A stretch of 64,000 bases of DNA, from positions 61,690,633 to 61,754,632 of the forward strand of contig OY755240.1 of assembly GCA_963576725.1 (NCBI GenBank), given 5' to 3'. The position numbers and the translations under genes were made by a program. This stretch comes from Azorinus chamasolen. Its lineage: Eukaryota > Mollusca > Bivalvia > Cardiida > Solecurtidae. Numbering within the stretch: position 1 is the stretch's first letter; each line of letters begins with the position of its first letter. Below, in pieces: positions 14,201 to 58,270 of the stretch. The notes below the pieces were generated by a model. It was not told the DNA's origin. It worked only from the letters and a program-made list of their open reading frames with translations, and ran no database searches.

Positions 14201-14209
14201 ACAAACAAA

Positions 14210-28876: not shown

Positions 28877-28885
28877 GTTAATCAT
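28877..28885 (+). repeat. Left 9-bp target site duplication
   Basis: GTTAATCAT here equals GTTAATCAT at 55109-55117, immediately outside the two ends of the inverted element. 9-bp duplications are typical of Mutator-like and Drosophila FB-type foldback insertions. Confidence 0.85.
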
Positions 28886-28973
28886 ATGTCCGTGAAGTTG
28901 GCTACTTGTTCCTTGTTCCCTGTTCGACATTCAATGGATTGTGAATGTTCAATAGCAAACAAGTAGCTAACTT
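28886..28973 (+). repeat. Left terminal module
   Basis: Differs at one base (CTGTTCGAC versus CAGTTCGAC) from the complement of 55021-55108. It is itself palindromic: GTGAAGTTGGCTACTTGTT near the outer edge faces AACAAGTAGCTAACTTCAC at the inner edge, around CATTCAATGGATTGTGAATG. The satellite orientation therefore flips within the first 90 bp. Confidence 0.9.
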
Positions 28974-31900
28974 CACATCCCGTTACTTATTCGACTGTTT
29001 TCGTTTTTGTGAATAACGAACCGGGAATAAGTAGCTAACATCACATCCCGTTACTTATTCGATTATTTTCATTATTCTGAATAACGAACCGGGAATAAGT
29101 AGCTAACTTCACATCCCGTTACTTATTCAATTATTTTCATTATTTTGAATAAGGAACCGGGAATAAGTAGCTAACTTCACATCCAGTTACTTATTCGATT
29201 ATTTTCGTTTTTGTGAATAACGAACCGGGAATAAGTAGCTAACTTCACATCCCGTTACTTATTCAATTATTTTCATTATTTTGAATAAGGAACCGGGAAT
29301 AAGTAGCTAACTTCACATCCAGTTACTTATTCGATTATTTTCGTTTTTGTGAATAACGAACCGGGAATAGGTAGCTAACTTAACATCCCGTTACTTATTC
29401 GACTATTTTCGTTATTCTGAATAACGAACCGGGAATAAGTAGCTAACTTCACATCCAGTTACTTATTCGATTATTTTCGTTTTTGTGAATAACGAACCGG
29501 GAATAAGTAGCTAACTTAACATCCCGTTACTTATTCGATATTTTCGTTTTTGTGAATAAGGAACCGGGAATAAGTAGCTAACTTCACATCCCGTTACTTA
29601 TTCGATTATTTTCGTTTTTCTGAATAACGAACCGGGAATAAGTAGCTAACTTCACATCCCGTTACTTATTCGATTATTTGCATTATTCTGAATAACGAAC
29701 CGGGAATAAGTAGCTAACTTCACATCCCGTTACTTATTCAATTATTTTCATTATTTTGAATAAGGAACCGGGAATAAGTAGCTAACTTCACATCCCGTTA
29801 CTTATTCGATTATTTTCGTTTTTGTGAATAACGAACCGGGAATAAGTAGCTAACTTCACATCCCGTTACTTATTCGAATATTTTCGTTATTCTGAATAAC
29901 GAACCGGGAATAAGTAGCTAACTTCACATCCCGTTACTTATTCGATTATTTTCGTTGTTCTGAATAACGAACCGGGAATAAGTAGCTAACTTCACATCCC
30001 GTTACTTATTCAATTATTTTCGTTATTTTGAATAACGAACCGGGAATAAGTAGCTAACTTCACATCCAGTTACTTATTCGATTATTTTCGTTTTTGTGAA
30101 TAACGAACCGCGAATAAGTAGCTAACTTCACATCCCGTTACTTATTCGATTATTTTCGTTATTCTGAATAACGAACCGGGAATAAGTAGCTAACTTCACA
30201 TCCCGTTACTTATTCGATTATTTTCGTTAATTTGAATAACGAACCGGGAATAAGTAGCTAACTTCACATCCCGTTACTTATTCGATTATTTTCGTTTTTG
30301 TGAATAACGAACCGGGAATAAGTAGCTAACTTAACATCCCGTTACTTATTCGATTATTTTCATTATTCTGAATAACGAACCGGGAATTAGTAGCTAACTT
30401 CACATCCCGTTACTTATTCAATTATATTCAATATTTTGAATAAGGAACCGGGAATAAGTAGCTAACTTCACATCCAGTTACTTATTCGATTATTTTCGTT
30501 TTTGTGAATAACGAACCGGGAATAGGTAGCTAACTTCACATCCCATTACTTATTCGACTATTTTCGTTATTCTGAATAACGAACCGGGAATAAGTAGCTA
30601 ACTTCACATCCCGTTACTTATTCGATTATTTTCGTTTTTGTCAATAAGGAACCGGGAATAAGTAGCTAACTTCACATCCCGTTACTTATTCGAATATTTT
30701 CGTTTTTGTGAATAACGAACCGGGAATAAGTAGCCAACTTCACGTCCAGTTACTTATTCGATTATTTTCGTTTTTGTGAATAACGAACCGGGAATAAGTA
30801 GCTAACTTCACATCCTGTTACTTATTCGATTGTTTTCGTTATTCTGAATAACGAACCGGGAATAAGTAGCTAACTTCACATCCCGTTACTTATTCATTTA
30901 TTTTCGTTAATTTGAATAACGAACCGGGAATAAGTAGCTAACTTCACATCCAGTTACTTATTCGATTATTTTCGTTTTTGTGAATAACGAACCGGGAATA
31001 AGTAGCTAACTTCACATCCCGTTACTTATTCAATTATTTTTCGTTATTTTGAATAAGGAACCGGGAATAAGTAGCTAACTTCACATCCCGTTACTTATTC
31101 GATTATTTTCGTTGTTCCGAATAACGAACCGGGAATAAGTAGCTAACTTCACATCCCGTTACTTATTCGATTATGTTCGTTTTTGTGAATAACGAACCGG
31201 GAATAAGTAGCTAACTTCACATCCCGTTACTTATTCGATTATTTTCGTTATTTTGAATAACGAACCGGGAATAAGTAGCTAACTTCACATCCCGTTACTT
31301 ATTCAATTATTTTCGTTATTTTGAATAACGAACCGGGAATAAGTAGCTAACTTCACATCCCGTTACTTATTCAATTATTTTCGTTATTTTGAATAACGAA
31401 CCGGGAATAAGTAGCTAACTTCACGTCCAGTTACTTATTCGATTATTTTCGTTTTTGTGAATAACGAACCGGGAATAAGTAGCTAACTTCACATCCCGTT
31501 ACTTATTCGATTATTTTCGTTATTCTGAATAACGAACCGGGAATAAGTAGCTAACTTCACATCCCGTTACTTATTCGATTATTTTCGTTAATTTGAATAA
31601 CGAACCGGGAATAAGTAGCTAACTTCACATCCAGTTACTTATTCGATTATTTTCGTTTTTGTGAATAAGGAACCGGGAATAAGTAGCTAACTTCACATCC
31701 CGTTACTTATTCGATTATTTTCGTTTTTGTGAATAACGAACCGGGAATAAGTAGCTAACTTAACATCCCGTTACTTATTCGATTATTTTCATTATTCTGA
31801 ATAACGAACCGGGAATTAGTAGCTAACTTCACATCCCGTTACTTATTCAATTATATTCAATATTTTGAATAAGGAACCGGGAATAAGTAGCTAACTTCAC

Positions 31901-34900
31901 ATCCCGTTACTTATTCGATTATTTTCGTTTTTGTGAATAACGAACCGGGAATAGGTAGCTAACTTCACATCCCATTACTTATTCGACTATTTTCGTTATT
32001 CTGAATAACGAACCGGGAATAAGTAGCTAACTTCACATCCCGTTACTTATTCGATTATTTTCGTTTTTGTCAATAAGGAACCGGGAATAAGTAGCTAACT
32101 TCACATCCCGTTACTTATTCGAATATTTTCGTTTTTGTGAATAACGAACCGGGAATAAGTAGCCAACTTCACGTCCAGTTACTTATTCGATTATTTTCGT
32201 TTTTGTGAATAACGAACCGGGAATAAGTAGCTAACTTCACATCCTGTTACTTATTCGATTGTTTTCGTTATTCTGAATAACGAACCGGGAATAAGTAGCT
32301 AACTTCACATCCCGTTACTTATTCATTTATTTTCGTTAATTTGAATAACGAACCGGGAATAAGTAGCTAACTTCACATCCAGTTACTTATTCGATTATTT
32401 TCGTTTTTGTGAATAACGAACCGGGAATAAGTAGCTAACTTCACATCCCGTTACTTATTCAATTATTTTTCGTTATTTTGAATAAGGAACCGGGAATAAG
32501 TAGCTAACTTCACATCCCGTTACTTATTCGATTATTTTCGTTGTTCCGAATAACGAACCGGGAATAAGTAGCTAACTTCACATCCCGTTACTTATTCGAT
32601 TATGTTCGTTTTTGTGAATAACGAACCGGGAATAAGTAGCTAACTTCACATCCCGTTACTTATTCGATTATTTTCGTTATTTTGAATAACGAACCGGGAA
32701 TAAGTAGCTAACTTCACATCCCGTTACTTATTCAATTATTTTCGTTATTTTGAATAACGAACCGGGAATAAGTAGCTAACTTCACATCCCGTTACTTATT
32801 CAATTATTTTCGTTATTTTGAATAACGAACCGGGAATAAGTAGCTAACTTCACGTCCAGTTACTTATTCGATTATTTTCGTTTTTGTGAATAACGAACCG
32901 GGAATAAGTAGCTAACTTCACATCCCGTTACTTATTCGATTATTTTCGTTATTCTGAATAACGAACCGGGAATAAGTAGCTAACTTCACATCCCGTTACT
33001 TATTCGATTATTTTCGTTAATTTGAATAACGAACCGGGAATAAGTAGCTAACTTCACATCCAGTTACTTATTCGATTATTTTCGTTTTTGTGAATAAGGA
33101 ACCGGGAATAAGTAGCTAACTTCACATCCCGTTACTTATTCGATTATTTTCGTTTTTGTGAATAACGAACCGGGAATAAGTAGCTAACTTCACATCCCGT
33201 TACTTATTCGATTATTTTCATTATTCTGAATAACGAACCGGGAATTAGTAGCTAACTTCACATCCCGTTACTTATTCAATTATATTCATTATTTTGAATA
33301 AGGAACCGGGAATAAGTAGCTAACTTCACATCCAGTTACTTATTCGATTATTTTCGTTATTCTGAATAACGAACCGGGAATAAGTAGCTAACTTCACATC
33401 CCGTTACTTATTCGACTATTTTCGTTATTCTGAATAACGAACCGGGAATAAGTAGCTAACTTCACATCCCGTTACTTATTCGATTATTTTCGTTTTTGTG
33501 AATAACGAACCGGGAATAAGTAGCTAACTTCACATCCCGTTACTTATTCGATTATTTTCGTTTTTGTCAATAACGAACCGGGAATAAGTAGCTAACTTCA
33601 CATCCCGTTACTTATTCGATTATTTTCATTATTCTGAATAACGAACCGGGAATTAGTAGCTAACTTCACATCCCGTTACTTATTCAATTATATTCATTAT
33701 TTTGAATAAGGAACCGGGAATAAGTAGCTAACTTCACATCCAGTTACTTATTCGATTATTTTCGTTTTTGTGAATAACGAACCGGGAATAGGTATCTAAC
33801 TTCACATCCCGTTACTTATTCGACTATTTTCGTTATTCTGAATAACGAACCGGGAATAAGTAGCTAACTTCACATCCCGTTACTTATTCGATTATTTTCG
33901 TTTTTGTGAATAACGAACCGGGAATAAGTAGCTAACTTCACATCCTGTTACTTATTCGATTGTTTTCGTTATTCTGAATAACGAACCGGGAATAAGTAGC
34001 TAACTTCACATCCCGTTACTTATTCATTTATTTTCGTTAATTTGAATAACGAACCGGGAATAAGTAGCTAACTTCACATCCAGTTACTTATTCGATTATT
34101 TTCGTTTTTGTGAATAACGAACCGGGAATAAGTAGCTAACTTCACATCCCGTTACTTATTCGATTATTTTCGTTTTTGTGAATAACGAACCGGGAATAAG
34201 TAGCTAACTTCACATCCCGTTACTTATTCGATTATTTTCGTTTTTGTGAATAACGAACCGGGAATAAGTAGCTAACTTCACATCCCGTTACTTATTCGAT
34301 TATTTTCGTTTTTGTGAATAACGAACCGGGAATAAGTAGCCAACTTCACGTCCCAGTTACTTATTCGATTATTTTCGTTTTTGTGAATAACGAACCGGGA
34401 ATAAGTAGCTAACTTCACATCCTGTTACTTATTCGATTGTTTTCGTTATTCTGAATAACGAACCGGGAATAAGTAGCTAACTTCACATCCCGTTACTTAT
34501 TCATTTATTTTCGTTAATTTGAATAACGAACCGGGAATAAGTAGCTAACTTCACATCCAGTTACTTATTCGATTATTTTCGTTTTTGTGAATAACGAACC
34601 GGGAATAAGTAGCTAACTTCACATCCCGTTACTTATTCAATTATTATTCGTTATTTTGAATAAGGAACCGGGAATAAGTAGCTAACTTCACATCCCGTTA
34701 CTTATTCGATTATTTTCGTTATTCTGAATAACGAACCGGGAATAAGTAGCTAACTTCACACTCCGTTACTTATTCGATTATTTTCGTTTTTGTGAATAAC
34801 GAACCGGGAATAAGTAGCTAACTTCACATCCCGTTACTTATTCGATTATTTTCGTGTTTGTGAATAACGAACCGGGAATAAGTAGCTAACTTCACATCCA

Positions 34901-35005
34901 GTTACTTATTCGATTTTTTTATGGAACCGGGAATAAGTAGCTAACTTTACATCCAAATACTGATTCAATTATATTAGTCATTTGGAATAAGGAACCGGGA
35001 ATAAG
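28974..35005 (+). repeat. Satellite A, left arm (~89 copies of a 68-bp unit)
   Basis: Unit landmarks: CGAACCGGGAATAAGTAGCT, AACTTCACATCCCG, TTACTTATTCGATTATTTTC, then a variable segment (GTTTTTGTG, GTTATTCTG, GTTATTTTG or GTTAATTTG) and GAATAA. Each unit contains a 9-bp stem GAATAAGTA / TACTTATTC, and in the GTTATTC type a second one, GTTATTC / GAATAAC. A few units are 67 or 69 bp. No open frames cross the array. The array decays over the last units (34910-35005). Confidence 0.95.
30240..33300 (+). repeat. Higher-order duplication in left arm, shift 1,429 bp
   Basis: Rare variants recur 1,429 bp apart: CATCCTGTTA at 30811 and 32240, TCAATAAGGA at 30641 and 32070, plus the six-T variant CAATTATTTTTCG at both places. 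The shift equals 21 units plus one base. Further CATCCTGTTA units near 33941 and 34420 show additional, shorter duplications. Confidence 0.85.
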
Positions 35006-37218
35006 AAACTATATACATGTATACAATGGACTCTCGTTACCACGGCATTCCTTCCAACGTTAATCTTTTGTAGCGACAGTATACTTTTAAACCGAGTTAC
35101 TGCATCGTAACTCTGCAACTCCATCGTAGATCTTTATGTGTTTGCTGCGTTAAGTAATTACAGTGGAGAAACTGTTATTCTTTCCAACTTATTGCGTTTC
35201 AAACGCGTTTTAAAGCCGTTTAAGCCAATGACTTGGGTCTACAATTATAAAAAAGGATATGTTACATTCTATTATGAATGTGACTTTAGAGGTTAGCACT
35301 GTAGGTTAATGGGTCTTTTCGTATTGGAAAATTATTCTATTCTTCTATTCAAACTTTTTGTGAACAGCGTAAACCTAAATCACGTAGAAACTGTCTGATC
35401 AGGATCTGCTCTGATTTCTTAGTCCGTAGACTTATTTCTTTAGATTCGATCATGGTTGTCTAGCGTCTCTGTAATCCCTGTAAATGAATATGCATGAGGT
35501 CATGAAATCTTTAATAAATATTCTTAAGAGAAAAAATAATTAATAAACACCAGTTAGCTCTGTTGACAGCAGACACCAAATTTGCTTTAAAATCAATTTC
35601 CCAATCCTTCTCGTATTATGTAAACGGCTTCACGCACGTTTGCAAATAGAGTAGATCCAGATCGGACAGTTCCTGAAGGAGCTGTCTGACCAGGTTCTGC
35701 TCTGTTGCTTATGAAATTCTGTTGATCTAATCCTATAGTTTCTGTCAGAGCCAAAGATCCCTTTGAAAAATTAGCATTGTGAAAAAAGGGCGTGTAAGAA
35801 AAAAATGATTTCATGGAGATCGAGTTTTTGTAATGATACATGAGTACATGAAAGTTTGGCTTTGACAGTAATTGTACAACCAGACCTACCGGTATATTAT
35901 TTCATAAGCAAACCGATAAGAGTTAGACCCTGATCAGTGATCAAGGAGCTACAACAGAAGCTGTCTGATCTGGATGTACTCTGTTTGTAAATTTGTTTCA
36001 TTACGTTTGATCTGGGTCTACTGTGTTTGCATTGACATAAACAGGCACGTGGAGTGTACATGTAGGGTTTATAGTCGTGAAGAGATTTACTCACACATAA
36101 TTGTTCATCGATTTCAATACCTAAAGATATTGGCAAAGAACACATCTTGCATTTTTCTTTCGGTGATGGAATTTTTTTATCAGTGTTTAAAATTTTACTC
36201 CTTCTTTTATTTTGATAAGATCTAGATCTTACTCCTCCTTTTAATTTGGTAAGATCTAGATAAGATATAATTATAACATGTATTTATACAGTCTCATGGC
36301 CTTCATTCATGGTGTGTAAAATGTCTTTCCGGCTACTGTACAGTAGGGTCCGTAGCAAATCTGGTAAAATAATTGTTGAATAGATCTAGATCAAATCAAG
36401 CTAAACTATCTAGAATTCACTTTATCTAAATTTAAAAAGATCTAAATCGTTGGGATTCAATTGTGCTAAGGTATAGATCTAATTAGTCAAAATATATATT
36501 TCTTCTATTTATTCGTGAACTAGTGCCATGAGTGTTCACAGAGTTAATTTTAAAATTATGTTTATTGCGCAGCAATGTCAGGCTGTAAAAATTATCCACC
36601 ACATAACTCATCTTTTCAATTCCCAGTTTAAAGGAATTAAAATATGCAATAAGAAATACGGTTGGAAAATCTATTGGGAAAACAGTAGAGTAGGTAAGCC
36701 ATTCCACAGTGTAGCTATTGAGAACTAATTACATGTACAGTGGAATTTTAATATCTCTAATTTCAAGGGAACTAGACAATTCATATGAAGAGAAAAGTTG
36801 ACATCCAATTTCTAGCCTAATAATGGTCCGTTGGTGACAGCCTAATGTAGTTCGAAAACATAGAGAGCACGTACATGAGCGTGCAGCATTGTTTTTGACA
36901 TGTATTAAGCTGTAGACGGAAACTTTAGAAAATTTACATAAAATAGATAATTTGCAAATTGTTGAAGGGAAAGAAATTGTACCTCGAAATATCTGATGTT
37001 TCGAGGCACCCGACTTCGATATAAAAAATCAACTGTTTTCCTAAAATGTCCTGAAAGTGAAACAAATCGCGAAAAGTCAGTTTCAATTGTTCGGATATGT
37101 TACAATGCGCAATTTGTTTTTCTTTCGTAGCTAATATGTACTAATCTTGTATTTTCTGAAATTTAAAATGCATTAACAAGGCACTAAATGAGATCGCTTG
37201 TAAAAATCTAACCCTCAG
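35006..37218. other. Left part of the foldback centre
   Basis: No gene. It holds worn MITE copies: TTAA-1-like hairpins near 35345-35420, 35620-35730 (GAGTAGATCCAGATCGGAC ... GTTCTGCTCTG) and 35905-36040; AGATCTAGAT-rich text at 36205-36480; and a TA-hp-like element at about 36736-37030 (CAGTGGAATTTTAATATC ... GCACGTACATGAGCGTGC ... CACCCGACTTCGATATA). These insertions are much older-looking than the arms. Confidence 0.65.
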
Positions 37219-38080
37219 ATGTGCGTGAAGTTAGCTGCCATTTGCCAGCCAATTCCACTATACGGCTTCCAATTCAATATGATACTCGCGAGTCGTCAAC
37301 TAGCAACTGGCAGCCAGTTGCCAATTCAAATGAAACTTCATGAATTGTGATTACTAGAGAACCGTGAATTGTCAACTGACAGCCAGCTGCCAATTCGAAT
37401 TTTATTATACATAGAAACATAGTCATGTGAATTGTCAACTGGCAAATGTCAGCCAGCTGACAATTCGCTCTTAAACTATCAAAACAGAGGTGATTACGAA
37501 TAGGTAACTGGCATCTGGCAGCCAGCTGCCAATTCAAATATAAAATAAGAAATTGTGTTTAAAGGCGAACTGGCAACTGGCAATCAGCTGCCAATTCAAA
37601 TGTAACTCCTGACATTGTTTGTGTTAGCAAACAGACACCTGGCAACTGGCAGCCAGCTGCCAATTCGACTTTTATTATACATCAGGTATTGTGATTACTA
37701 ACGAACCGACAACAGGCAGCCAGTTGCCAATTGAAATGTAACTTCAGAAATTGTATTTACTAGCCAAAAGTCAACTAGCAACTGGCAGCCAACTGCCAAT
37801 TCGAATTTTATCATACATAGATACGTATTCAGGTGAATTGTCAACTGGCAGCCATCTTCCAAATCGCTCTTAACATATCAAAACAGGGTTGACCACGAAT
37901 AGTCAACTGGCAACTGACAGCCAGCTGCCAATTCAAATGTAACATAAGAAACTGTATTTACAGGTGAACCGTCAATTGGCAACTGGCAGCCAGCAGCCAA
38001 TTCAAATGTTACTTCAGGTATTGTGCTTAATGAACCGTCTACTGACAACTGGCAGCCAGCTGCCAATTCACTCTTAACAT
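37219..38080 (+). repeat. Satellite B, 12 units of ~68 bp
   Basis: The key block CAGCCAGCTGCCAATTC recurs near 37312, 37381, 37453, 37521, 37583, 37651, 37717, 37786, 37849, 37919, 37988 and 38056 (spacing 62-72 bp). GAACCGTCAACTGGCAACTG precedes it, so each unit folds as TTGGCAGC / GCTGCCAA. The first unit begins ATGTGCGTGAAGTTAGCTGC, close to the end of the giant element. Long minus-strand open frames here are repeats of one unit. Confidence 0.88.
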
Positions 38081-38099
38081 GTCAACTATTAAATCAAAT

Positions 38100-38492
38100 C
38101 AGATTAGATGAAGTATATTTCAATATCTTATTCAGATCAATATCCATATCTGATTAGAATAGATCTGGATATGATCAGGATCTGATCAGGGTCTGATCCG
38201 ATCTGGCCCTGATCTTAATTAGAGTTTTCGCTTGTCTTGATCAGATCAGATAAGAACAGCCAGATCCAGATCCAGATTATGTCAGATCAGATTAGATCAA
38301 GATGCAAATCAAATCAGATCAAATCAGACCAAATCAGAAATGATTCAATCCAGATAAGATCCAACTCATATCCAGATCAGATTAGATCAGATTAGATCAT
38401 ACCATATCAGGTCAGAAGTGATTCAGATCCAGATCCAAATCAGATCAAGATCAGACGAGATCTAGATCCAGATCAGATAAGATCAGATCGGG
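38100..38492 (+). repeat. GATC-rich block C
   Basis: Dense degenerate repeats of CAGATCAGAT, AGATCCAGATC and GATCTGGATC. The step is 5-6 bp with no strict period. Confidence 0.85.
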
Positions 38493-39180
38493 TTTGTTCA
38501 TGTAATGAGAGTAGTTGAGTAACTTTAGCGTGCGCAATTGACAAATTCATGATTAACAGATGTGCGACTCAACTCTATGTCATGTTATCAAGTCACACAT
38601 ACGTTGTAGCAGGTTGTACACATTGTTAGTAAATAAACATTACCAGCCTAGATTAAACAAGACGTATCTCATCGTCTGATTTGAATCCAAACTGTTAAAA
38701 TATGTAACCAGATAAAGATCAACAAAGTCTTGAAATAATGAAAATCTACAAAATAATAAATGTATGCTCTAAAAATGTGATGTCGGAAATCTTACGTAAT
38801 TAGTGCGATATAAAACAGCATAGATCGAGGTTCTCTATCTATTAAACTCTATCACCGATTATCCTTTCACTCGTTCTCCTGAATACAGCTGTTATTTATC
38901 TAAGTGTTTTGTGACCTTTATTATGCTAAGCACGATATGACTTGCATTTGTAAACACCTTGGATCCAGATGAGGCACCGAGATGAGGATCCAAGCTGTTT
39001 GACACTTGTTCAATAGTTTCTCAAACAGTTGTAACGAATCAGAAGTAAGTAAACAATGTAACAAAGCAAGTAAAAATGAAACACATCAGAGTTGTGGCAG
39101 AATAATTTTCAGCACAAAATGAGTTAATTTAGATGCTGTGCAGTAACTGCAAACTCCGCCCAATTAGCCGGATCAACATA
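38493..39180. other. Central loop of the foldback
   Basis: About 0.7 kb between the inverted GATC blocks. It contains a TTAA-2-related hairpin at about 38930-39035 (ATGCTAAGCACGATATGACT ... CCTTGGATCCAGATGAG ... GAGGATCCAAGCTGTTTG). Otherwise there is no recognisable gene. Confidence 0.65.
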
Positions 39181-39560
39181 TCTGTATAAATCTTGATTTA
39201 GACTGGATAAACATATGATCTGATCGGTTCTGATCTGGATCAAGATCTGGATCTGGATCTCCTCTGGTCATATCTAGTCTGACTTTATGTAATCTGGGAT
39301 GATATGATCTAATCGAATCTTATCTGATCTGATCTGGATCTAGATCTGATCCGATCTGCTTTGCTCAAAACAAGTACAATATTAGATTTAGATCAGAACT
39401 AGATCAGATCCAGATCAGATTCTGATCTAATATAATCGTATCTGGATCTGAGCTGATCTTGATCTGAGTTGATCTGATCGGATACAAACCAGATACAGAT
39501 CAGATTCCGATCAGCTTTATATCTGATCTATTCTTATCTCATTTCATCTCATCTCACACT
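39180..39560 (-). repeat. GATC-rich block C', inverted relative to C
   Basis: Mirror of block C in type: ATCTGATCTG, GATCTGGATCTGGATCTC and GATCTGATCTGGATC dominate, where C mostly has CAGATCAGAT and AGATCCAGATC. Because GATC is self-complementary, orientation is read from the flanking bases. Confidence 0.75.
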
Positions 39561-39599
39561 ATCTCATCAATTCACATGAATATGTATCTAGGGATTATA

Positions 39600-39783
39600 G
39601 AAGTCGAATTGGAAGCTGGCTGCCAGTTGCCAGTTGACTAGTCGTGATCAACTCTGTTTTGATATGTTAAGAGCGAATTTGAAGCTGGCTGCCAGTTGCC
39701 AGTTGACGGTTCGCTAGTAAACAATTTCTGAAGTTACATTTGATTTGGCAGCTGGCTGCCAATTGCCGGTTGACTATTCAAAT
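39600..39783 (-). repeat. Satellite B', inverted, ~2.5 units
   Basis: AAGCTGGCTGCCAGTTGCC occurs twice and GGCAGCTGGCTGCCAATTGCC once, with TGACGGTTCGC between: the complement of satellite B, at the same ~70-bp spacing. TTTTGATATGTTAAGAGCG matches the complement of a segment in B near 37870. Confidence 0.85.
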
Positions 39784-39787
39784 GAGT

Positions 39788-40190
39788 ATTTATTACCAGT
39801 CAGAGTAAATCCTTGGAATTTGATTGGCAAGTTTGCTAAACCGTAAAAACCGTATTCGGGGGCTTCCACGGAGAATACAGAATTCAAATTTGACGTCGAT
39901 TCGAAATTTCATATCGTCCTTAGTCCATTAATTCTTGACGGATTACGACCAAAAATCGATAATAAACGTAAAAGATTGTTCCTCGTATGTTCCTCAATTT
40001 GACACTATCAACTTCTAGGTACAACGTGTAACCGTTTAAACTCAAATGTTTACAAGTGAAGATTGAATTCCTCTTTCGAAATTGCTCTGAGACGACGTCA
40101 TATTTGCTCTGTGATGACGTCTCATGTCAGCAATAATAAGAGTTGTTCCTTTCTTAATTAGGTAAGTCGGATCTCTGACTGGTAATAAAT
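39788..40190. repeat. ~400-bp stretch bounded by an 18-bp inverted repeat
   Basis: ATTTATTACCAGTCAGAG (39788-39805) is matched by CTCTGACTGGTAATAAAT (40173-40190). Between them is single-copy-looking sequence with no gene. It sits at the junction of satellite B' and the right arm, so it may be a separate insertion that removed the B' outer end. No target duplication was identified. Confidence 0.55.
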
Positions 40191-40211
40191 TAATTACACG
40201 GTAATTTGGCA

Positions 40212-43200: not shown

Positions 43201-46200
43201 GGATGTGAAGTTAGCTACTTATTCCCGGTTCGTTATTCAGAATAATGAAAATAATCGAATAAGTCACGGGATGTGAAGTTAGCTACTTATTCCCGGTTCG
43301 TTATTCACAAAAACGAAAATAATCGAATAAGTAACGGAATGTGAAGTTAGCTACTTATTCCCGGTTCCTTATTCACAAAAACGAAAATATCGAATAAGTA
43401 ACGGGATGTGAAGTTAGCTACTTATTCCCGGTTCGTTATTCACAAAAACGAAAATAATCGAATTAGTAACTGGATGTGAAGTTAGCTACTTATTCCCGGT
43501 TCCTTATTCCAAATAATGAAAATAATTGAATAAGTAACGGGATGTGAAGTTAGCTACTTATTCCCGGTTCGTTATTCAGAATAACGAAAATAATCGAATA
43601 AGTAACGGGATGTGAAGTTAGCTACTTATTCCCGGTTCGTTATTCACAAAAACGAAAATAATCGAATAAGTAACGGGATGTGAAGTTAGCTACTTATTCC
43701 CGGTTCCTTATTCACAAAAACGAAAATATCGAATAAGTAACGGGATGTGAAGTTAGCTACTTATTCCCGGTTCGTTATTCACAAAAACGAAAATAATCGA
43801 ATAAGTAACGGGATGTGAAGTTAGCTACTTATTCCCGGTTCGTTATTCGGAACAACGAAAATAATCGAATAAGTAACGGGATGTGAAGTTAGCTACTTAT
43901 TCCCGGTTCGTTATTCAGAACAACGAAAATAATCGAATAAGTAACGGGATGTGAAGTTAGCTACTTATTCCCGGTTCGTTATTCAGAATAACGAAAATAG
44001 TCGAATAAGTAACGGGATGTGAAGTTAGCTACTTATTCCCGGTTCGTTATTCAGAATAACGAAAATAGTCGAATAAGTAACGGGATGTGAAGTTAACTAC
44101 CTATTCCCGGTTCGTTATTCACAAAAACGAAAATAATCGAATAAGTAACTGGAGGTGAAGTTAGCTACTTATTCCCGGTTCCTTATTCAAAATAATGAAA
44201 ATAATCGAATAAGTAACGGGATGTGAAGTTAGCTACTTATTCCCGGTTCGTTATTCAGAATAATGAAAATAATCGAATAAGTAACGGGATGTGAAGTTAG
44301 CTACTTATTCCCGGTTCGTTATTCACAAAAACGAAAATAATCGAATAAGTAACGGGATGTGAAGTTAGCTACTTATTCCCGGTTCCTTATTCACAAAAAC
44401 GAAAATATCGAATAAGTAACGGGATGTGAAGTTAGCTACTTATTCCCGGTTCGTTATTCAGAACAACGAAAATAATCGAATAAGTAACGGGATGTGAAGT
44501 TAGCTACTTATTCCCGGTTCGTTATTCAGAATAACGAAAATAGTCGAATAAGTAACGGGATGTGAAGTTAGCTACCTATTCCCGGTTCGTTATTCAGAAT
44601 AACGAAAATAATCGAATAAGTAACGGGATGTGAAGTTAGCTACTTATTCCCGGTTCCTTATTCAAAATAATGAAAATAATTGAATAAGTAATGGGATGTG
44701 AAGTTAGCTACTTATTCCCGGTTCGTTATTCAGAATAACGAAAATAGTCGAATAAGTAACGGGATGTGAAGTTAGCTACTTATTCCCGGTTCGTTATTCA
44801 GAATAACGAAAATAGTCGAATAAGTAACGGGATGTGAAGTTAACTACCTATTCCCGGTTCGTTATTCACAAAAACGAAAATAATCGAATAAGTAACTGGA
44901 TGTGAAGTTAGCTACTTATTCCCGGTTCCTTATTCAAAATAATGAAAATAATTGAATAAGTAACGGGATGTGAAGTTAGCTACTTATTCCCGGTTCGTTA
45001 TTCAGAATAATGAAAATAATCGAATAAGTAACGGGATGTGAAGTTAGCTACTTATTCCCGGTTCGTTATTCACAAAAACGAAAATAATCGAATAAGTAAC
45101 GGGATGTGAAGTTAGCTACTTATTCCCGGTTCCTTATTCACAAAAACGAAAATATCGAATAAGTAACGGGATGTGAAGTTAGCTACTTATTCCCGGTTCG
45201 TTATTCAGAACAACGAAAATAATCGAATAAGTAACGGGATGTGAAGTTAGCTACTTATTCCCGGTTCGTTATTCAGAATAACGAAAATAGTCGAATAAGT
45301 AACGGGATGTGAAGTTAGCTACCTATTCCCGGTTCGTTATTCAGAATAACGAAAATAATCGAATAAGTAACGGTATGTGAAGTTAGCTACTTATTCCCGG
45401 TTCCTTATTCAAAATAATGAAAATAATTGAATAAGTAATGGGATGTGAAGTTAGCTACTTATTCCCGGTTCGTTATTCAGAATAACGAAAATAGTCGAAT
45501 AAGTAACGGTATGTGAAGTTAGCTACCTATTCCCGGTTCGTTATTCACAAAAACGAAAATAATCGAATAAGTAACTGGATGTGAAGTTAGCTACTTATTC
45601 CCGGTTCCTTATTCAAAATAATGAAAATAATTGAATAAGTAACGGGATGTGAAGTTAGCTACTTATTCCCGGTTCGTTATTCAGAATAATGAAAATAATC
45701 GAATAAGTCACGGGATGTGAAGTTAGCTACTTATTCCCGGTTCGTTATTCACAAAAACGAAAATAATCGAATAAGTAACGGAATGTGAAGTTAGCTACTT
45801 ATTCCCGGTTCCTTATTCACAAAAACGAAAATATCGAATAAGTAACGGGATGTGAAGTTAGCTACTTATTCCCGGTTCGTTATTCACAAAAACGAAAATA
45901 ATCGAATAAGTAACTGGATGTGAAGTTAGCTACTTATTCCCGGTTCCTTATTCCAAATAATGAAAATAATTGAATAAGTAACGGGATGTGAAGTTAGCTA
46001 CTTATTCCCGGTTCGTTATTCAGAATAACGAAAATAATCGAATAAGTAACGGGATGTGAAGTTAGCTACTTATTCCCGGTTCGTTATTCACAAAAACGAA
46101 AATAATCGAATAAGTAACGGGATGTGAAGTTAGCTACTTATTCCCGGTTCCTTATTCACAAAAACGAAAATATCGAATAAGTAACGGGATGTGAAGTTAG

Positions 46201-49200
46201 CTACTTATTCCCGGTTCGTTATTCACAAAAACGAAAATAATCGAATAAGTAACGGGATGTGAAGTTAGCTACTTATTCCCGGTTCGTTATTCGGAACAAC
46301 GAAAATAATCGAATAAGTAACGGGATGTGAAGTTAGCTACTTATTCCCGGTTCGTTATTCAGAACAACGAAAATAATCGAATAAGTAACGGGGTGTGAAG
46401 TTAGCTACTTATTCCCGGTTCGTTATTCAGAATAACGAAAATAGTCGAATAAGTAACGGGATGTGAAGTTAACTACCTATTCCCGGTTCGTTATTCACAA
46501 AAACGAAAATAATCGAATAAGTAACTGGATGTGAAGTTAGCTACTTATTCCCGGTTCCTTATTCAAAATAATGAAAATAATTGAATAAGTAACGGAATGT
46601 GAAGTTAGCTACTTATTCCCGGTTCGTTATTCAGAATAATGAAAATAATCGAATAAGTAACGGGATGTGAAGTTAGCTACTTATTCCCGGTTCGTTATTC
46701 AGAAAAACGAAAATAATCGAATAAGTAACGGGATGTGAAGTTAGCTACTTATTCCCGGTTCGTTATTCAGAATAACGAAAATAGTCGAATAAGTAACGGG
46801 ATGTGAAGTTAACTACCTATTCCCGGTTCGTTATTCACAAAAACGAAAATAATCGAATAAGTAACTGGATGTGAAGTTAGCTACTTATTCCCGGTTCCTT
46901 ATTCAAAATAATGAAAATAATTGAATAAGTAACGGGATGTGAAGTTAGCTACTTATTCCCGGTTCGTTATTCAGAATAATGAAAATAATCGAATAAGTAA
47001 CGGGATGTGAAGTTAGCTACTTATTCCCGGTTCGTTATTCACAAAAACGAAAATAATCGAATAAGTAACGGGATGTGAAGTTAGCTACTTATTCCCGGTT
47101 CCTTATTCACAAAAACGAAAATATCGAATAAGTAACGGGATGTGAAGTTAGCTACTTATTCCCGTTTCGTTATTCAGAACAACGAAAATAATCGAATAAG
47201 TAACGGGATGTGAAGTTAGCTACTTATTCCCGGTTCGTTATTCAGAATAACGAAAATAGTCGAATAAGTAACGGGATGTGAAGTTAGCTACTTATTCCCG
47301 GTTAGTTATTCAGAATAACGAAAATAATCGAATAAGTAACGGGATGTGAAGTTAGCTACTTATTCCCGGTTCCTTATTCAAAATAATGAAAATAATTGAA
47401 TAAGTAATGGGATGTGAAGTTAGCTACTTATTCCCGGTTCGTTATTCAGAATAACGAAAATAGTCGAATAAGTAACGGTATGTGAAGTTAGCTACCTATT
47501 CCCGGTTCGTTATTCACAAAAACGAAAATAATCGAATAAGTAACTGGATGTGAAGTTAGCTACTTATTCCCGGTTCCTTATTCAAAATAATGAAAATAAT
47601 TGAATAAGTAACGGGATGTGAAGTTAGCTACTTATTCCCGGTTCGTTATTCAGAATAATGAAAATAATCGAATAAGTCACGGGATGTGAAGTTAGCTACT
47701 TATTCCCGGTTCGTTATTCACAAAAACGAAAATAATCGAATAAGTAACGGAATGTGAAGTTAGCTACTTATTCCCGGTTCCTTATTCACAAAAACGAAAA
47801 TATCGAATAAGTAACGGGATGTGAAGTTAGCTACTTATTCCCGGTTCGTTATTCACAAAAACGAAAATAATCGAATAAGTAACGGGATGTGAAGTTAGCT
47901 ACTTATTCCCGGTTCCTTATTCACAAAAACGAAAATATCGAATAAGTAACGGGATGTGAAGTTAGCTACTTATTCCCGGTTCGTTATTCAGAACAACGAA
48001 AATAATCGAATAAGTAACGGGATGTGAAGTTAGCTACTTATTCCCGGTTCGTTATTCAGAATAACGAAAATAGTCGAATAAGTAACGGGATGTGAAGTTA
48101 GCTACCTATTCCCGGTTCGTTATTCAGAATAACGAAAATAATCGAATAAGTAACGGGATGTGAAGTTAGCTACTTATTCCCGGTTCCTTATTCAAAATAA
48201 TGAAAATAATTGAATAAGTAATGGGATGTGAAGTTAGCTACTTATTCCCGGTTCGTTATTCAGAATAACGAAAATAGTCGAATAAGTAACGGGATGTGAA
48301 GTTAGCTACTTATTCCCGGTTCGTTATTCAGAATAACGAAAATAGTCGAATAAGTAACGGGATGTGAAGTTAACTACCTATTCCCGGTTCGTTATTCACA
48401 AAAACGAAAATAATCGAATAAGTAACTGGATGTGAAGTTAGCTACTTATTCCCGGTTCCTTATTCAAAATAATGAAAATAATTGAATAAGTAACGGGATG
48501 TGAAGTTAGCTACTTATTCCCGGTTCGTTATTCAGAATAATGAAAATAATCGAATAAGTAACGGGATGTGAAGTTAGCTACTTATTCCCGGTTCGTTATT
48601 CACAAAAACGAAAATAATCGAATAAGTAACGGGATGTGAAGTTAGCTACTTATTCCCGGTTCCTTATTCACAAAAACGAAAATATCGAATAAGTAACGGG
48701 ATGTGAAGTTAGCTACTTATTCCCGGTTCGTTATTCAGAACAACGAAAATAATCGAATAAGTAACGGGATGTGAAGTTAGCTACTTATTCCCGGTTCGTT
48801 ATTCAGAATAACGAAAATAGTCGAATAAGTAACGGGATGTGAAGTTAGCTACCTATTCCCGGTTCGTTATTCAGAATAACGAAAATAATCGAATAAGTAA
48901 CGGTATGTGAAGTTAGCTACTTATTCCCGGTTCCTTATTCAAAATAATGAAAATAATTGAATAAGTAATGGGATGTGAAGTTAGCTACTTATTCCCGGAT
49001 CGTTATTCAGAATAACGAAAATAGTCGAATAAGTAACGGTATGTGAAGTTAGCTACCTATTCCCGGTTCGTTATTCACAAAAACGAAAATAATCGAATAA
49101 GTAACTGGATGTGAAGTTAGCTACTTATTCCCGGTTCCTTATTCAAAATAATGAAAATAATTGAATAAGTAACGGGATGTGAAGTTAGCTACTTATTCCC

Positions 49201-52200
49201 GGTTCGTTATTCAGAATAATGAAAATAATCGAATAAGTCACGGGATGTGAAGTTAGCTACTTATTCCCGGTTCGTTATTCACAAAAACGAAAATAATCGA
49301 ATAAGTAACGGAATGTGAAGTTAGCTACTTATTCCCGGTTCCTTATTCACAAAAGCGAAAATATCGAATAAGTAACGGGATGTGAAGTTAGCTACTTATT
49401 CCCGGTTCGTTATTCACAAAAACGAAAATAATCGAATAAGTAACTGGATGTGAAGTTAGCTACTTATTCCCGGTTCCTTATTCCAAATAATGAAAATAAT
49501 TGAATAAGTAACGGGATGTGAAGTTAGCTACTTATTCCCGGTTCGTTATTCAGAATAACGAAAATAATCGAATAAGTAACGGGATGTGAAGTTAGCTACT
49601 TATTCCCGGTTCGTTATTCACAAAAACGAAAATAATCGAATAAGTAACGGGATGTGAAGTTAGCTACTTATTCCCGGTTCCTTATTCACAAAAACGAAAA
49701 TATCGAATAAGTAACGGGATGTGAAGTTAGCTACTTATTCCCGGTTCGTTATTCACAAAAACGAAAATAATCGAATAAGTAACGGGATGTGAAGTTAGCT
49801 ACTTATTCCCGGTTCGTTATTCGGAACAACGAAAATAATCGAATAAGTAACGGGATGTGAAGTTAGCTACTTATTCCCGGTTCGTTATTCAGAACAACGA
49901 AAATAATCGAATAAGTAACGGGGTGTGAAGTTAGCTACTTATTCCCGGTTCGTTATTCAGAATAACGAAAATAGTCGAATAAGTAACGGGATGTGAAGTT
50001 AACTACCTATTCCCGGTTCGTTATTCACAAAAACGAAAATAATCGAATAAGTAACTGGATGTGAAGTTAGCTACTTATTCCCGGTTCCTTATTCAAAATA
50101 ATGAAAATAATTGAATAAGTAACGGAATGTGAAGTTAGCTACTTATTCCCGGTTCGTTATTCAGAATAATGAAAATAATCGAATAAGTAACGGGATGTGA
50201 AGTTAGCTACTTATTCCCGGTTCGTTATTCAGAAAAACGAAAATAATCGAATAAGTAACGGGATGTGAAGTTAGCTACTTATTCCCGGTTCGTTATTCAG
50301 AATAACGAAAATAGTCGAATAAGTAACGGGATGTGAAGTTAACTACCTATTCCCGGTTCGTTATTCACAAAAACGAAAATAATCGAATAAGTAACTGGAT
50401 GTGAAGTTAGCTACTTATTCCCGGTTCCTTATTCAAAATAATGAAAATAATTGAATAAGTAACGGGATGTGAAGTTAGCTACTTATTCCCGGTTCGTTAT
50501 TCAGAATAATGAAAATAATCGAATAAGTAACGGGATGTGAAGTTAGCTACTTATTCCCGGTTCGTTATTCACAAAAACGAAAATAATCGAATAAGTAACG
50601 GGATGTGAAGTTAGCTACTTATTCCCGGTTCCTTATTCACAAAAACGAAAATATCGAATAAGTAACGGGATGTGAAGTTAGCTACTTATTCCCGTTTCGT
50701 TATTCAGAACAACGAAAATAATCGAATAAGTAACGGGATGTGAAGTTAGCTACTTATTCCCGGTTCGTTATTCAGAATAACGAAAATAGTCGAATAAGTA
50801 ACGGGATGTGAAGTTAGCTACTTATTCCCGGTTAGTTATTCAGAATAACGAAAATAATCGAATAAGTAACGGGATGTGAAGTTAGCTACTTATTCCCGGT
50901 TCCTTATTCAAAATAATGAAAATAATTGAATAAGTAATGGGATGTGAAGTTAGCTACTTATTCCCGGTTCGTTATTCAGAATAACGAAAATAGTCGAATA
51001 AGTAACGGTATGTGAAGTTAGCTACCTATTCCCGGTTCGTTATTCACAAAAACGAAAATAATCGAATAAGTAACTGGATGTGAAGTTAGCTACTTATTCC
51101 CGGTTCCTTATTCAAAATAATGAAAATAATTGAATAAGTAACGGGATGTGAAGTTAGCTACTTATTCCCGGTTCGTTATTCAGAATAATGAAAATAATCG
51201 AATAAGTCACGGGATGTGAAGTTAGCTACTTATTCCCGGTTCGTTATTCACAAAAACGAAAATAATCGAATAAGTAACGGAATGTGAAGTTAGCTACTTA
51301 TTCCCGGTTCCTTATTCACAAAAACGAAAATATCGAATAAGTAACGGGATGTGAAGTTAGCTACTTATTCCCGGTTCGTTATTCACAAAAACGAAAATAA
51401 TCGAATTAGTAACTGGATGTGAAGTTAGCTACTTATTCCCGGTTCCTTATTCCAAATAATGAAAATAATTGAATAAGTAACGGGATGTGAAGTTAGCTAC
51501 TTATTCCCGGTTCGTTATTCAGAATAACGAAAATAATCGAATAAGTAACGGGATGTGAAGTTAGCTACTTATTCCCGGTTCGTTATTCACAAAAACGAAA
51601 ATAATCGAATAAGTAACTGGATGTGAAGTTAGCTACTTATTCCCGGTTCCTTATTCCAAATAATGAAAATAATTGAATAAGTAACGGGATGTGAAGTTAG
51701 CTACTTATTCCCGGTTCGTTATTCAGAATAACGAAAATAATCGAATAAGTAACGGGATGTGAAGTTAGCTACTTATTCCCGGTTCGTTATTCACAAAAAC
51801 GAAAATAATCGAATAAGTAACGGGATGTGAAGTTAGCTACTTATTCCCGGTTCCTTATTCAAAATAATGAAAATAATTGAATAAGTAACGGGATGTGAAG
51901 TTAGCTACTTATTCCCGGTTCGTTATTCAGAATAATGAAAATAATCGAATAAGTAACGGGATGTGAAGTTAGCTACTTATTCCCGGTTCCTTATTCACAA
52001 AAACGAAAATATCGAATAAGTAACGGGATGTGAAGTTAGCTACTTATTCCCGGTTCGTTATTCACAAAAACGAAAATAATCGAATAAGTAACGGGATGTG
52101 AAGTTAGCTACTTATTCCCGGTTCGTTATTCAGAACAACGAAAATAATCGAATAAGTAACGGGATGTGAAGTTAGCTACTTATTCCCGGTTCGTTATTCA

Positions 52201-55020
52201 GAACAACGAAAATAATCGAATAAGTAACGGGATGTGAAGTTAGCTACTTATTCCCGGTTCGTTATTCAGAATAACGAAAATAGTCGAATAAGTAACGGGA
52301 TGTGAAGTTAGCTACTTATTCCCGGTTCGTTATTCAGAATAACGAAAATAGTCGAATAAGTAACGGGATGTGAAGTTAGCTACTTATTCCCGGTTCGTTA
52401 TTCAGAATAACGAAAATAGTCGAATAAGTAACGGGATGTGAAGTTAACTACCTATTCCCGGTTCGTTATTCACAAAAACGAAAATAATCGAATAAGTAAC
52501 TGGAGGTGAAGTTAGCTACTTATTCCCGGTTCCTTATTCAAAATAATGAAAATAATCGAATAAGTAACGGGATGTGAAGTTAGCTACTTATTCCCGGTTC
52601 GTTATTCAGAATAATGAAAATAATCGAATAAGTAACGGGATGTGAAGTTAGCTACTTATTCCCGGTTCGTTATTCACAAAAACGAAAATAATCGAATAAG
52701 TAACGGGATGTGAAGTTAGCTACTTATTCCCGGTTCCTTATTCACAAAAACGAAAATATCGAATAAGTAACGGGATGTGAAGTTAGCTACTTATTCCCGG
52801 TTCGTTATTCAGAACAACGAAAATAATCGAATAAGTAACGGGATGTGAAGTTAGCTACTTATTCCCGGTTCGTTATTCAGAATAACGAAAATAGTCGAAT
52901 AAGTAACGGGATGTGAAGTTAGCTACCTATTCCCGGTTCGTTATTCAGAATAACGAAAATAATCGAATAAGTAACGGGATGTGAAGTTAGCTACTTATTC
53001 CCGGTTCCTTATTCAAAATAATGAAAATAATTGAATAAGTAATGGGATGTGAAGTTAGCTACTTATTCCCGGTTCGTTATTCAGAATAACGAAAATAGTC
53101 GAATAAGTAACGGGATGTGAAGTTAGCTACTTATTCCCGGTTCGTTATTCAGAATAACGAAAATAGTCGAATAAGTAACGGGATGTGAAGTTAACTACCT
53201 ATTCCCGGTTCGTTATTCACAAAAACGAAAATAATCGAATAAGTAACTGGATGTGAAGTTAGCTACTTATTCCCGGTTCCTTATTCAAAATAATGAAAAT
53301 AATTGAATAAGTAACGGGATGTGAAGTTAGCTACTTATTCCCGGTTCGTTATTCAGAATAATGAAAATAATCGAATAAGTAACGGGATGTGAAGTTAGCT
53401 ACTTATTCCCGGTTCGTTATTCACAAAAACGAAAATAATCGAATAAGTAACGGGATGTGAAGTTAGCTACTTATTCCCGGTTCCTTATTCACAAAAACGA
53501 AAATATCGAATAAGTAACGGGATGTGAAGTTAGCTACTTATTCCCGGTTCGTTATTCAGAATAACGAAAATAATCGAATAAGTAACGGGATGTGAAGTTA
53601 GCTACTTATTCCCGGTTCGTTATTCACAAAAACGAAAATAATCGAATAAGTAACGGGATGTGAAGTTAGCTACTTATTCCCGGTTCCTTATTCAAAATAA
53701 TGAAAATAATTGAATAAGTAACGGGATGTGAAGTTAGCTACTTATTCCCGGTTCGTTATTCAGAATAATGAAAATAATCGAATAAGTAACGGGATGTGAA
53801 GTTAGCTACTTATTCCCGGTTCCTTATTCACAAAAACGAAAATATCGAATAAGTAACGGGATGTGAAGTTAGCTACTTATTCCCGGTTCGTTATTCACAA
53901 AAACGAAAATAATCGAATAAGTAACGGGATGTGAAGTTAGCTACTTATTCCCGGTTCGTTATTCAGAACAACGAAAATAATCGAATAAGTAACGGGATGT
54001 GAAGTTAGCTACTTATTCCCGGTTCGTTATTCAGAACAACGAAAATAATCGAATAAGTAACGGGATGTGAAGTTAGCTACTTATTCCCGGTTCGTTATTC
54101 AGAATAACGAAAATAGTCGAATAAGTAACGGGATGTGAAGTTAACTACCTATTCCCGGTTCGTTATTCACAAAAACGAAAATAATCGAATAAGTAACTGG
54201 ATGTGAAGTTAGCTACTTATTCCCGGTTCCTTATTCAAAATAATGAAAATAATTGAATAAGTAACGGAATGTGAAGTTAGCTACTTATTCCCGGTTCGTT
54301 ATTCAGAATAATGAAAATAATCGAATAAGTAACGGGATGTGAAGTTAGCTACTTATTCCCGGTTCGTTATTCACAAAAACGAAAATAATCGAATAAGTAA
54401 CGGGATGTGAAGTTAGCTACTTATTCCCGGTTCCTTATTCACAAAAACGAAAATATCGAATAAGTAACGGGATGTGAAGTTAGCTACTTATTCCCGGTTC
54501 GTTATTCAGAACAACGAAAATAATCGAATAAGTAACGGGATGTGAAGTTAGCTACTTATTCCCGGTTCGTTAGTCAGAATAACGAAAATAGTCGAATAAG
54601 TAACGGGATGTGAAGTTAGCTACCTATTCCCGGTTCGTTATTCAGAATAACGAAAATAATCGAATAAGTAACGGGATGTGAAGTTAGCTACTTATTCCCG
54701 GTTCCTTATTCAAAATAATGAAAATAATTGAATAAGTAATGGAATGTGAAGTTAGCTACTTATTCCCGGTTCGTTATTCACAAAAACGAAAATAATCGAA
54801 TAAGTAACTGGATGTGAAGTTAGCTACTTATTCCCGGTTCGTTATTCAAAATAACGAAAATAATTGAATAAGTAACGGGATGTGAAGTTAGCTACTTATT
54901 CCCGGTTCGTTATTCAGAATAACGAATATAATTGAATAAGTAACTGAGTGTGAAGTTAGCTACTTATTCCCGGTTCGTTATTCACAAAAACGAAAACAGT
55001 CGAATAAGTAACGGAGTGTG
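40212..55020 (-). repeat. Satellite A', right arm (~218 copies, inverted)
   Basis: The complement of the left-arm unit: GTGAAGTTAGCTACTTATTC, CCGGTTCGTTATTC, a variable segment, AATAATCGAATAAGTAACGG. Variants in the segment (ACAAAAACG, AGAATAACG, AAAATAATG, GGAACAACG) occur in recurring order, showing higher-order structure. Some units are 66 bp (GAAAATATCGAA lacks two bases). There are no open frames. The arm is about 2.5 times the length of the left one. Confidence 0.95.
44270..51400 (-). repeat. 3,530-bp higher-order tandem duplication in right arm
   Basis: Rare variants recur exactly 3,530 bp apart: GGGTGTGAAG at 46391 and 49921, CCCGTTTCGT at 47161 and 50691, GTTAGTTATT at 47301 and 50831. 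Copy 1 spans about 44270-47800, copy 2 about 47800-51400. I noticed only a few single-base differences (e.g. CCCGGATCG at 48994 against CCCGGTTCG). About 52 satellite units per copy. Confidence 0.88.
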
Positions 55021-55108
55021 AAGTTAGCTACTTGTTTGCTATTGAACATTCACAATCCATTGAATGTCGAACTGGGAACAAGGAACAAGTAGCCAACTTC
55101 ACGGACAT
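55021..55108 (-). repeat. Right terminal module
   Basis: Complement of 28886-28973 with one mismatch. Ends GTAGCCAACTTCACGGACAT against the target duplication. The last satellite units before it carry the ACGGAGTG variant. Confidence 0.9.
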
Positions 55109-55117
55109 GTTAATCAT
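55109..55117 (+). repeat. Right 9-bp target site duplication
   Basis: GTTAATCAT, identical to 28877-28885. Confidence 0.85.
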
Positions 55118-56901: not shown

Positions 56902-58270
56902 ACTGCTGTATTAGCCATAGCGTGTTGATCCTGCCACTCTCTTATGATTGTTGGACATTTTAAACCCCCTTTTCAAACATAAGGCTCCACAAATGTAGAA
57001 AAAAAGAAAAAGAAAACAAAATAGATAAACGAACAACAAGAACCTCATCAATATTTTTATGGAATTCTAGGGAATCCCCTTGCTGTTGTACGTGCGGGTG
57101 TTGTCACTGTTATGTCAGCGGGATTCCACTGTCCAGGAGTTGGATTCCGAGGGAGTGCTGTTGTCAAACTGGGCATCCCTATATGCTTGGTACCTCTGAT
57201 AACTCTAGTTCCAATGCCGGAGGGAGCACCGTAGTGAAACAAGGCATCCCTATTCCCACTGGTACATTGGGAGTATTGCTGGCATGACTTGCTACCCTGC
57301 CCTCAACCAGTGCCAGGAATTCCTGTTAAGCTAACCCAGTTTAATTATTTTTGCTTACCAGTGACTGGGTCACGTAATATATGGACAGTGGGCAGGTTAA
57401 GCCTGTACGGTTCGATGCAGCATCGCGTACCTCAGTCAGTCTCGATTTGTCCGATATGATGCCTTTGCCATTGCTGCCGGTGGCATATGTTTTAGGAACA
57501 ACAAAGTTGTAGCTCTACTTTGGCTGGGCCTTTCGGGTTCCCATAATAGGACATTTTACTCTGTAATTAATATTTGGATGTACCCAATTACAACTCCGTT
57601 AAAATACGAGTTATCCTTTGTGTACTCCCTCATTGCCATAGCGGGTCGAGTAGTGTTTGACTGGTACTCCCTCATTGCCATAGCGGGTCGAGTAGTGTTT
57701 GACTGGTACTCCCTCATTGCCATAGCGGGTCGAGTAGTGTTTGACTGGAGGGGTTGCATATTGCGGGTATATAACAGTTGTTTATTGTATTGCTTACTAT
57801 AATAGTTTATATGCATGAACTTCAAATTGATCTGTTCTGTTATCCAATTTTCCAATATATGTAAGGCAATATTTTATGTGTAGTGTTGTATACCAAAAAA
57901 ATGTACCCACGTCTATTGGTTCTGGGTTATAACTGTGTGACGTACTGGCACTGTACATAGACTGTTATATTCAAGTTTGTTTTTTGTGATCTGAGTGCGT
58001 TAACAAAATATAATAGAGCATAATATGACAGACAGATAAACTTATGGAAAGGATGAAGTTGGTTTACCTACACTCTGAATAAATTCATTTTTATTATTAT
58101 TCTTATCTATATATAAGTATCAAATATATTTTATTTTAAATGTTCTATAATTATGTATCGAATATACCCTGTTTTGTACATAAAATGTATCTATGTGAAG
58201 CGCTTTTGAACGCACATATCCTATGTGAAAAGAGCGCTATATAAATGTGGTATAGTAATGATAATAATAT
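56902..58270 (+). other. LINE 3' region and unassigned insert
   Basis: 58195-58270 has GAAGCGCTTTTGAACGC and AAAGAGCGCTATATAAATG then ATGATAATAAT, the tail style of CR1/L2 elements. 57040-57560 is a more GC-rich block with repeated GGGAATCCC / GGCATCCCTAT pieces that I cannot assign; no coding frame is convincing. Confidence 0.55.
57623..57748 (+). repeat. 42-bp repeat, three exact copies
   Basis: TACTCCCTCATTGCCATAGC ... GTTTGACTGG at 57623-57664, 57665-57706 and 57707-57748 with no differences. 42 is a multiple of three, so the translated frame repeats a 14-residue block; this is not evidence of a gene. Confidence 0.95.

Follow-up and report, generated by a model that had tools for sequence, protein, structure and literature searches.

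Long opposing satellite arms in a foldback-type element of the bivalve Azorinus chamasolen

Many satellite DNAs have been proposed to derive from transposons, mostly from their remnants. Foldback (FB-NOF) elements are of the Mutator type and have 9-bp duplications and composite terminal inverted repeats (TIRs) with unequal numbers of tandem units. Among the closest described systems, Tetris of Drosophila virilis is presented as a non-autonomous foldback element whose TIRs hold variable numbers of tandem repeats and which makes 8-10 bp duplications (PMC4079207). Its repeat unit shares sequence with the end of the TIR and its arrays expand into satellite DNA; the same account gives TIRs of up to 1,735 bp and three structurally complete copies, reports no autonomous copy, and suggests a possible disruption of transposition by larger arrays (PMC4079207). 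Rehavkus-1_TC of Tribolium is described with a 9-bp duplication and inverted termini that contain a tandem 164-bp satellite, mostly as five and eight monomers, and Rehavkus transposases are reported to have a PHD finger (PMC10218199, PMC6446971). Tm1 is portrayed as Mutator-type, with 9-bp duplications and composite TIRs whose tandem units differ in number per side, its transposase-bearing and non-autonomous members having ends in common (PMC3169594). Galileo, of the P superfamily, is described with long TIRs that contain tandem repeats, the two TIRs changing independently (PMC3573991), and these repeats are reported to hold extra transposase binding sites (PMC3688188). Plant MULEs with tandem TIRs, as reported, have repeated end sequences and still amplify (PMC3310237).

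Here we describe an element of the foldback structural class, i.e. with inverted arms of tandem units that are unequal between sides and between copies. It lies in a window of 64,000 nucleotides, the whole stretch of DNA that was analysed, which is part of contig C6 in a 1.72-Gb assembly of 137 contigs. We consider it very likely that the element belongs, as a non-autonomous copy, to a family of DNA transposons that move as units and make a 9-bp duplication, a judgement that also covers the mobilisation in trans and the arm growth that we infer below.

Structure of the element in the window

The element has a length of 26,223 bp and is bounded by two copies of the 9-bp sequence GTTAATCAT (Table 1), which has no further occurrence on the + strand of the window. 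The end modules are inverted, and their inverted similarity continues inward into the first satellite units. Analysed by TRF, both arms have a period of 68 and 93% matches, with 87.6 copies on the left (28961-34920) and 218.2 copies on the right (40215-55033), and the two arrays run in opposite orientation. The non-satellite core that separates the arms has no ORF longer than 128 aa, counted from stop to stop, and no N is present anywhere in the window. The initial annotation had described terminal inverted modules with one mismatch, a perfect 9-bp direct repeat just outside them, and one 68-bp satellite filling both arms in opposite orientation, all of which stands, with the modules measured at 92 bp. 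Its arm lengths of about 6 and 15 kb were also right, but the arms do not meet, as the 5,195-bp core lies between them. The term 'foldback-like' proved structurally correct, the transposase-bearing partner discussed below having been outside its view.

Table 1. Features of the element, with positions in the window
Feature	Position	Strand	Remarks
Target-site duplication, left copy, 9 bp GTTAATCAT	28877..28885	.	perfect match to right copy
Element between the duplications	28886..55108		26,223 bp
Left terminal module, 92 bp	28886..28977	+	19-bp inverted repeat around spacer; outer 27 bp satellite-like
Left satellite arm, 68-bp unit	28961..35019	+	with terminal module 28886-35019, 6,134 bp
Non-satellite core, 5,195 bp	35020..40214	+	defines E-type within family
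Inner diverged tandem array, ~69-bp unit	37219..38085	+	left half, nested inverted structure in core
GATC-rich inner repeat, left half	38160..38490	+	
GATC-rich inner repeat, right half	39210..39540	-	
Inner 69-bp-type repeats, inverted orientation	39590..39780	-	
Right satellite arm, 68-bp unit, inverted	40215..55033	-	with terminal module 40215-55108, 14,894 bp
Right terminal module, 92 bp	55017..55108	-	1 mismatch vs left module
Target-site duplication, right copy, 9 bp	55109..55117	.	

Compared with the minus strand of the satellite unit, the outermost 27 bp of the end agree at 23 of 27 positions, a score that 0 of 2,000 shuffles reach. The module at each end is in addition a 19-bp inverted repeat, and a 21-bp palindrome with one mismatch lies within the unit. 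These observations indicate that each unit repeats the end sequence. By analogy with Galileo, the unit motifs may be regarded as candidate transposase binding sites. The motif columns have a higher conservation, 0.976 vs 0.940, a difference that is biased because the units were selected by that same motif.

Several other features were observed in the window. The nested inverted arrays in the core (37219-39780), the left one of which opens, to judge by eye, with a sequence similar to the end of the element, may be the relic of an older related foldback. Just beyond the right end, two ORFs at 55587-56339 (+) are non-LTR reverse transcriptase-like by eye. Other tandem arrays are present at 12760-14207 (157/325-bp periods) and 1-878 (352-bp period), and a 42-bp repeat occurs in three perfect copies within an open frame at 57622-57748.

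A genome-wide family and its transposase-like gene

The end module was searched for genome-wide with a 26-base end motif (<=2 mismatches), module copies without paired ends or 9-bp duplications having been named at the outset as what would refute the transposon reading. The search gave 92 forward and 92 reverse places, and the backward control gave 0 + 0. The pairing analysis covers the 100 ends listed among these 184 places, all of them exact matches on C1-C9. They form 47 inverted pairs (94 ends), with 6 ends unpaired, and the spacing of the pairs ranges from 9,626 to 40,014 bp with a median of 13,338. When the 100 listed ends were placed at random, inverted pairs within 60 kb averaged 0.18, with a maximum of 2 in 2,000 simulations. 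At least 31 copies are of the E-type, the core type of the window copy, with cores 98-99% identical, and at least 38 are of a shorter S type that is without core positions ~1526-3342. The smallest copy read, E8, is 9,007 bp. In eight copies the arms measure 1.0-17.4 kb, unequal between left and right, as taken from a single assembly in which some array lengths could be wrong. The core of copy E7 (C9:35.2 Mb) has an additional segment, a second copy of core positions 224-1110 that is 88% identical.

The 9-bp duplication is perfect in 23 of the 25 copies read on both sides, and its sequence differs between copies. With these duplications and with 94 of the 100 listed ends paired, the transposon reading withstood the refuting condition set at the outset. 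The 25 copies comprise the one in the window, 6 out of an initial set of 7, 15 with both ends listed and 3 of the largest; 2 of the 23 perfect duplications were obtained after a 1-base register correction, made after the cross-pair control. In that control, the flanking 9-mers of different copies (462 cross pairs, 22 copies) gave none at 0-1 mismatch, the best having 2. The imperfect duplications are those of C9_20, with 1 mismatch, and C10_80, with 2 mismatches in a T run. In a 26th copy, E6, masking covers the right flank except for 2 bases, which agree. When the flanks of copy C9_15 were joined with a single copy of the duplication between them, 9 further places matched over 210-211 of 211 bases, one of them at 100% with no gap. 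These nine places are uninterrupted empty sites (paralogous) of a repeat that C9_15 inserted into.

No ORF longer than 136 aa was present in the eight cores and six S loci examined. A transposase-like gene was found by way of samples from the middles of three of the largest elements. In the element C1_42 (C1:42739772-42772462) its open frame has 1,073 codons, or 1,057 aa from the first Met, and ends at a splice-donor-like site; homologous predicted proteins end there too, and part of the 3' end of the gene may be missing. It is present at three places in the genome with 100% identity, as rounded, over 744 aa, and the next-best genome matches are at 51-53% and then about 40%. Both in C1_42 and in C6:30246771-30286099 the gene lies between paired ends with perfect duplications, and in the C15 copy, just like those on C1 and C6, a right end follows 17.8 kb downstream. 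Six 80-bp samples from C1_42 showed the satellite in forward orientation at two left places and in reverse at two right places; the two inner samples were non-satellite, one of them 89% identical to window positions 39292-39376. When 6.4 kb of transposase-element interior was compared with the window core, no other similarity was detectable, and the link between C1_42 and the window copy consists of the ends, the satellite and this one 80-bp sample.

At least six homologues of the protein, with 25-50% identity, are found in the protein collection (8,000 candidates scored). Its D, D, CxxH and E motifs, at 539, 610, 657 and 842, may correspond to the D..D..CxxH..E catalytic pattern that Mutator transposases have in an RNase H-like fold; D, D, C and H are invariant in the six homologues, and E is present in 5 of 6. 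The protein has no match in Pfam, NCBIfam, PHROGs or PDB, and its six homologues have no Pfam match except two weak unrelated ones. Pfam finds no PHD finger in the ORF, which stops at the splice-donor-like site. A genome search with PF10551 (MULE) gave 36 matches, the transposase-like gene not among them, a result that is still compatible with distant kinship. As candidates for the partner, these MULE-domain genes were rejected: none of the 36 lies closer than 331 kb to any of the 79 ends examined, or closer than 1.3 Mb to the 100 listed ends on C1-C9. Diverged relatives of the gene, at 39-53% identity, were seen at C7:62276921, C1:51670637, C4:30305386 and C3:94295317, some with long open frames, and are possibly members of related families with other ends.

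On these sequence comparisons, the gene-bearing elements are the probable autonomous partner of the window-type copies. The MULE-domain matches in the genome, together with a gene that was found without a Pfam domain, leave some room for an unrelated transposase to move the family, the gene inside two members being a passenger. We regard this as improbable, since the gene copies are identical at the rounded figure given and lie between the family's own ends, the D, D and CxxH positions are conserved, with E in 5 of 6 homologues, and the nearest MULE match is 331 kb from the 79 ends examined.

Inheritance and growth of the satellite arms

Two copies, X79 (C10:79680798-79696697) and X77 (C10:77737149-77752980), have different duplications, TCAATTCAT and GGAAATTCA, and their flanks have no 14-mer in common within 300 bp on either side. 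Across 15,696 aligned bases (left arm 6,135, core 5,191, right arm 4,370) they show 0 substitutions, and their sole differences are a 136-bp indel (2 units) and a 204-bp indel (3 units). The identity of these copies at unrelated sites shows that long arms transpose whole and have done so recently, in this case in 16-kb elements with arms of 6.1 and 4.4-4.6 kb. Since the two differ by whole-unit indels without any substitution, array length changes faster than bases do. A second pair, E2 and E4, on two other contigs, has 5 substitutions in 3,400 core bases. Exact blocks of 204 bp or more that are common to both cover 99% of the right arm and 66% of the left arm, the latter measuring 7.9 kb in E2 and 17.4 kb in E4.

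In the window copy itself, the core shows 22 substitutions relative to X79 over 5,180 aligned bases. The right arm of this copy, 14,894 bp, compares with 4,574 bp in X79 and 4,370 bp in X77, measured from sequence, and with 4,176 bp in C9_25 and 4,652 bp in C2_20, measured by coordinates; it is thus about 10 kb longer than in the four closest sisters. Exact duplicates internal to this arm reach 2,051 bp, with an offset of 3,530 bp. These results show that the right arm of the window copy has grown, either before or after landing here. In a fifth relative, C3_23 (34,347 bp), the coordinates give arms of about 23 kb on the left and about 6.0 kb on the right, and this long left arm indicates that growth is peculiar neither to the window copy nor to one side. 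The initial annotation had left open whether the satellite-armed unit inserts as a whole or the arms grow, and both occur, the former in X79 and X77 as other copies of the family and the latter in the window copy relative to X79.

That a small palindromic element inserted first and the satellite grew at the site later would agree with the wide differences between close sisters, i.e. the 14.9-kb right arm in the window against 4.2-4.7 kb in four sisters and the 17.4-kb left arm of E4 against 7.9 kb in E2, as well as with the long exact internal duplicates. As the sole route, however, growth is refuted by the identical 6.1-kb and 4.4-kb arms of X79 and X77 at unrelated sites, unless these two are really a single misplaced locus, and the arm sequence that E2 and E4 have in common also speaks against it. 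We therefore hold this explanation to be very improbable; growth adds to arms that are already long on arrival. Least credible of all is the view that an assembly join or an inversion of the satellite, and not a mobile unit, accounts for the inverted structure, for although long near-identical arrays are hard to assemble, the 47 inverted pairs against 0.18 by chance, the distinct perfect duplications in 23 of 25 copies, a window without N and the empty site for one copy reduce its probability to almost nothing.

We further examined how the arms change in relation to the core and to each other. Same-side arm sharing drops with core divergence, with a Spearman coefficient of -0.58 for 55 left pairs and -0.65 for 45 right pairs, drawn from 11 copies so that the pairs are not independent. 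Left-right sharing is 0.07 within one copy vs 0.05 between copies, and homogenisation between the two arms of one copy was rejected on these values. Mean unit identity is ~94-95% both within and between 16 arms, and this equality led us to reject copy-specific unit homogenisation as well. The arms are inherited together with the core and change separately.

Returning to the transposon family, we propose the following mechanism. Each end is formed by a 92-bp module followed inward by a long 68-bp array whose unit repeats the outermost end sequence. A transposase from the 33-39 kb members, which have the identical end type, would bind the ends, and probably also the motif in each unit, and would move all family members in trans. 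The whole-unit indels and the long internal duplicates suggest that the two arms may grow independently of each other, whether through unequal exchange, through slippage or through gap repair between identical units. A more far-reaching proposal is tentative, and we rate it as rather unlikely: the arrays could be working parts of the transposon, with the end sequence in each unit bound by the transposase, long arms aiding movement, and excision and repair re-setting arm length by whole units, the transposase belonging to a lineage outside the profile libraries. If this were true, a living transposon would produce, select and export satellite DNA, in place of an origin from dead ones.

Classification and comparison with described systems

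The 9-bp duplication lies within the 8-10 bp, mostly 9 bp, by which Mutator elements (MULEs) are recognised (PMC6446971), and the combination given for Rehavkus, a 9-bp duplication with satellite or minisatellite near the ends (PMC10218199, PMC6446971), is found here. Judged against the published descriptions, these features point to the Mutator/Rehavkus group. As the protein has no MULE match in Pfam, we do not file the element as a Mutator/Rehavkus member. The P superfamily (Galileo type, 7-bp duplication) is ruled out by a duplication of 9 bp in 23 of 25 copies. Helitrons and Helentrons have neither TIRs nor a target duplication. A satellite carrier of this type was rejected because paired inverted ends and 9-bp duplications exist.

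The family shows long satellite arms travelling with a recently active element, which is one way in which satellite DNA is made and spread. Sisters of near-zero age that differ by whole units make the gain and loss of units per transposition measurable against a substitution clock. X79 and X77 spread in spite of arms of 6.1 and 4.6 kb, an observation relevant to the idea, put forward for Tetris, that transposition may have been disrupted by larger arrays (PMC4079207). No element with satellite arms this long was found in the open-licence PMC literature.

Judged by the published descriptions, Tetris is alike in its tandem-repeat TIRs, in a unit that shares the sequence of the TIR end and in the size of its duplication. 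The present family differs in having arms of up to 17 kb, about 92 end pairs and near-identical long-armed copies at different sites, and in a transposase-like gene within members that have the same ends, whereas Tetris is described without an autonomous copy. A 9-bp duplication and satellite termini are common to Rehavkus-1_TC and the elements studied here, Rehavkus-1_TC being given as 9.5 kb with short arrays; the PHD finger reported for Rehavkus was not seen here, in a gene that may lack its 3' end. Tm1 is described with a unit of ~14 bp and elements of ~1 kb or less (PMC3169594), compared with 68 bp and 9-40 kb here. Galileo, of another superfamily, is reported with 7-bp duplications and TIRs of up to ~1.26 kb (PMC3573991), and the plant MULEs are reported with few tandem TIRs (PMC3310237) where the present elements carry satellite arrays. 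Set beside these accounts, the system is foldback-type and, as we infer for its superfamily, Mutator/Rehavkus-like, and is of unusual scale.
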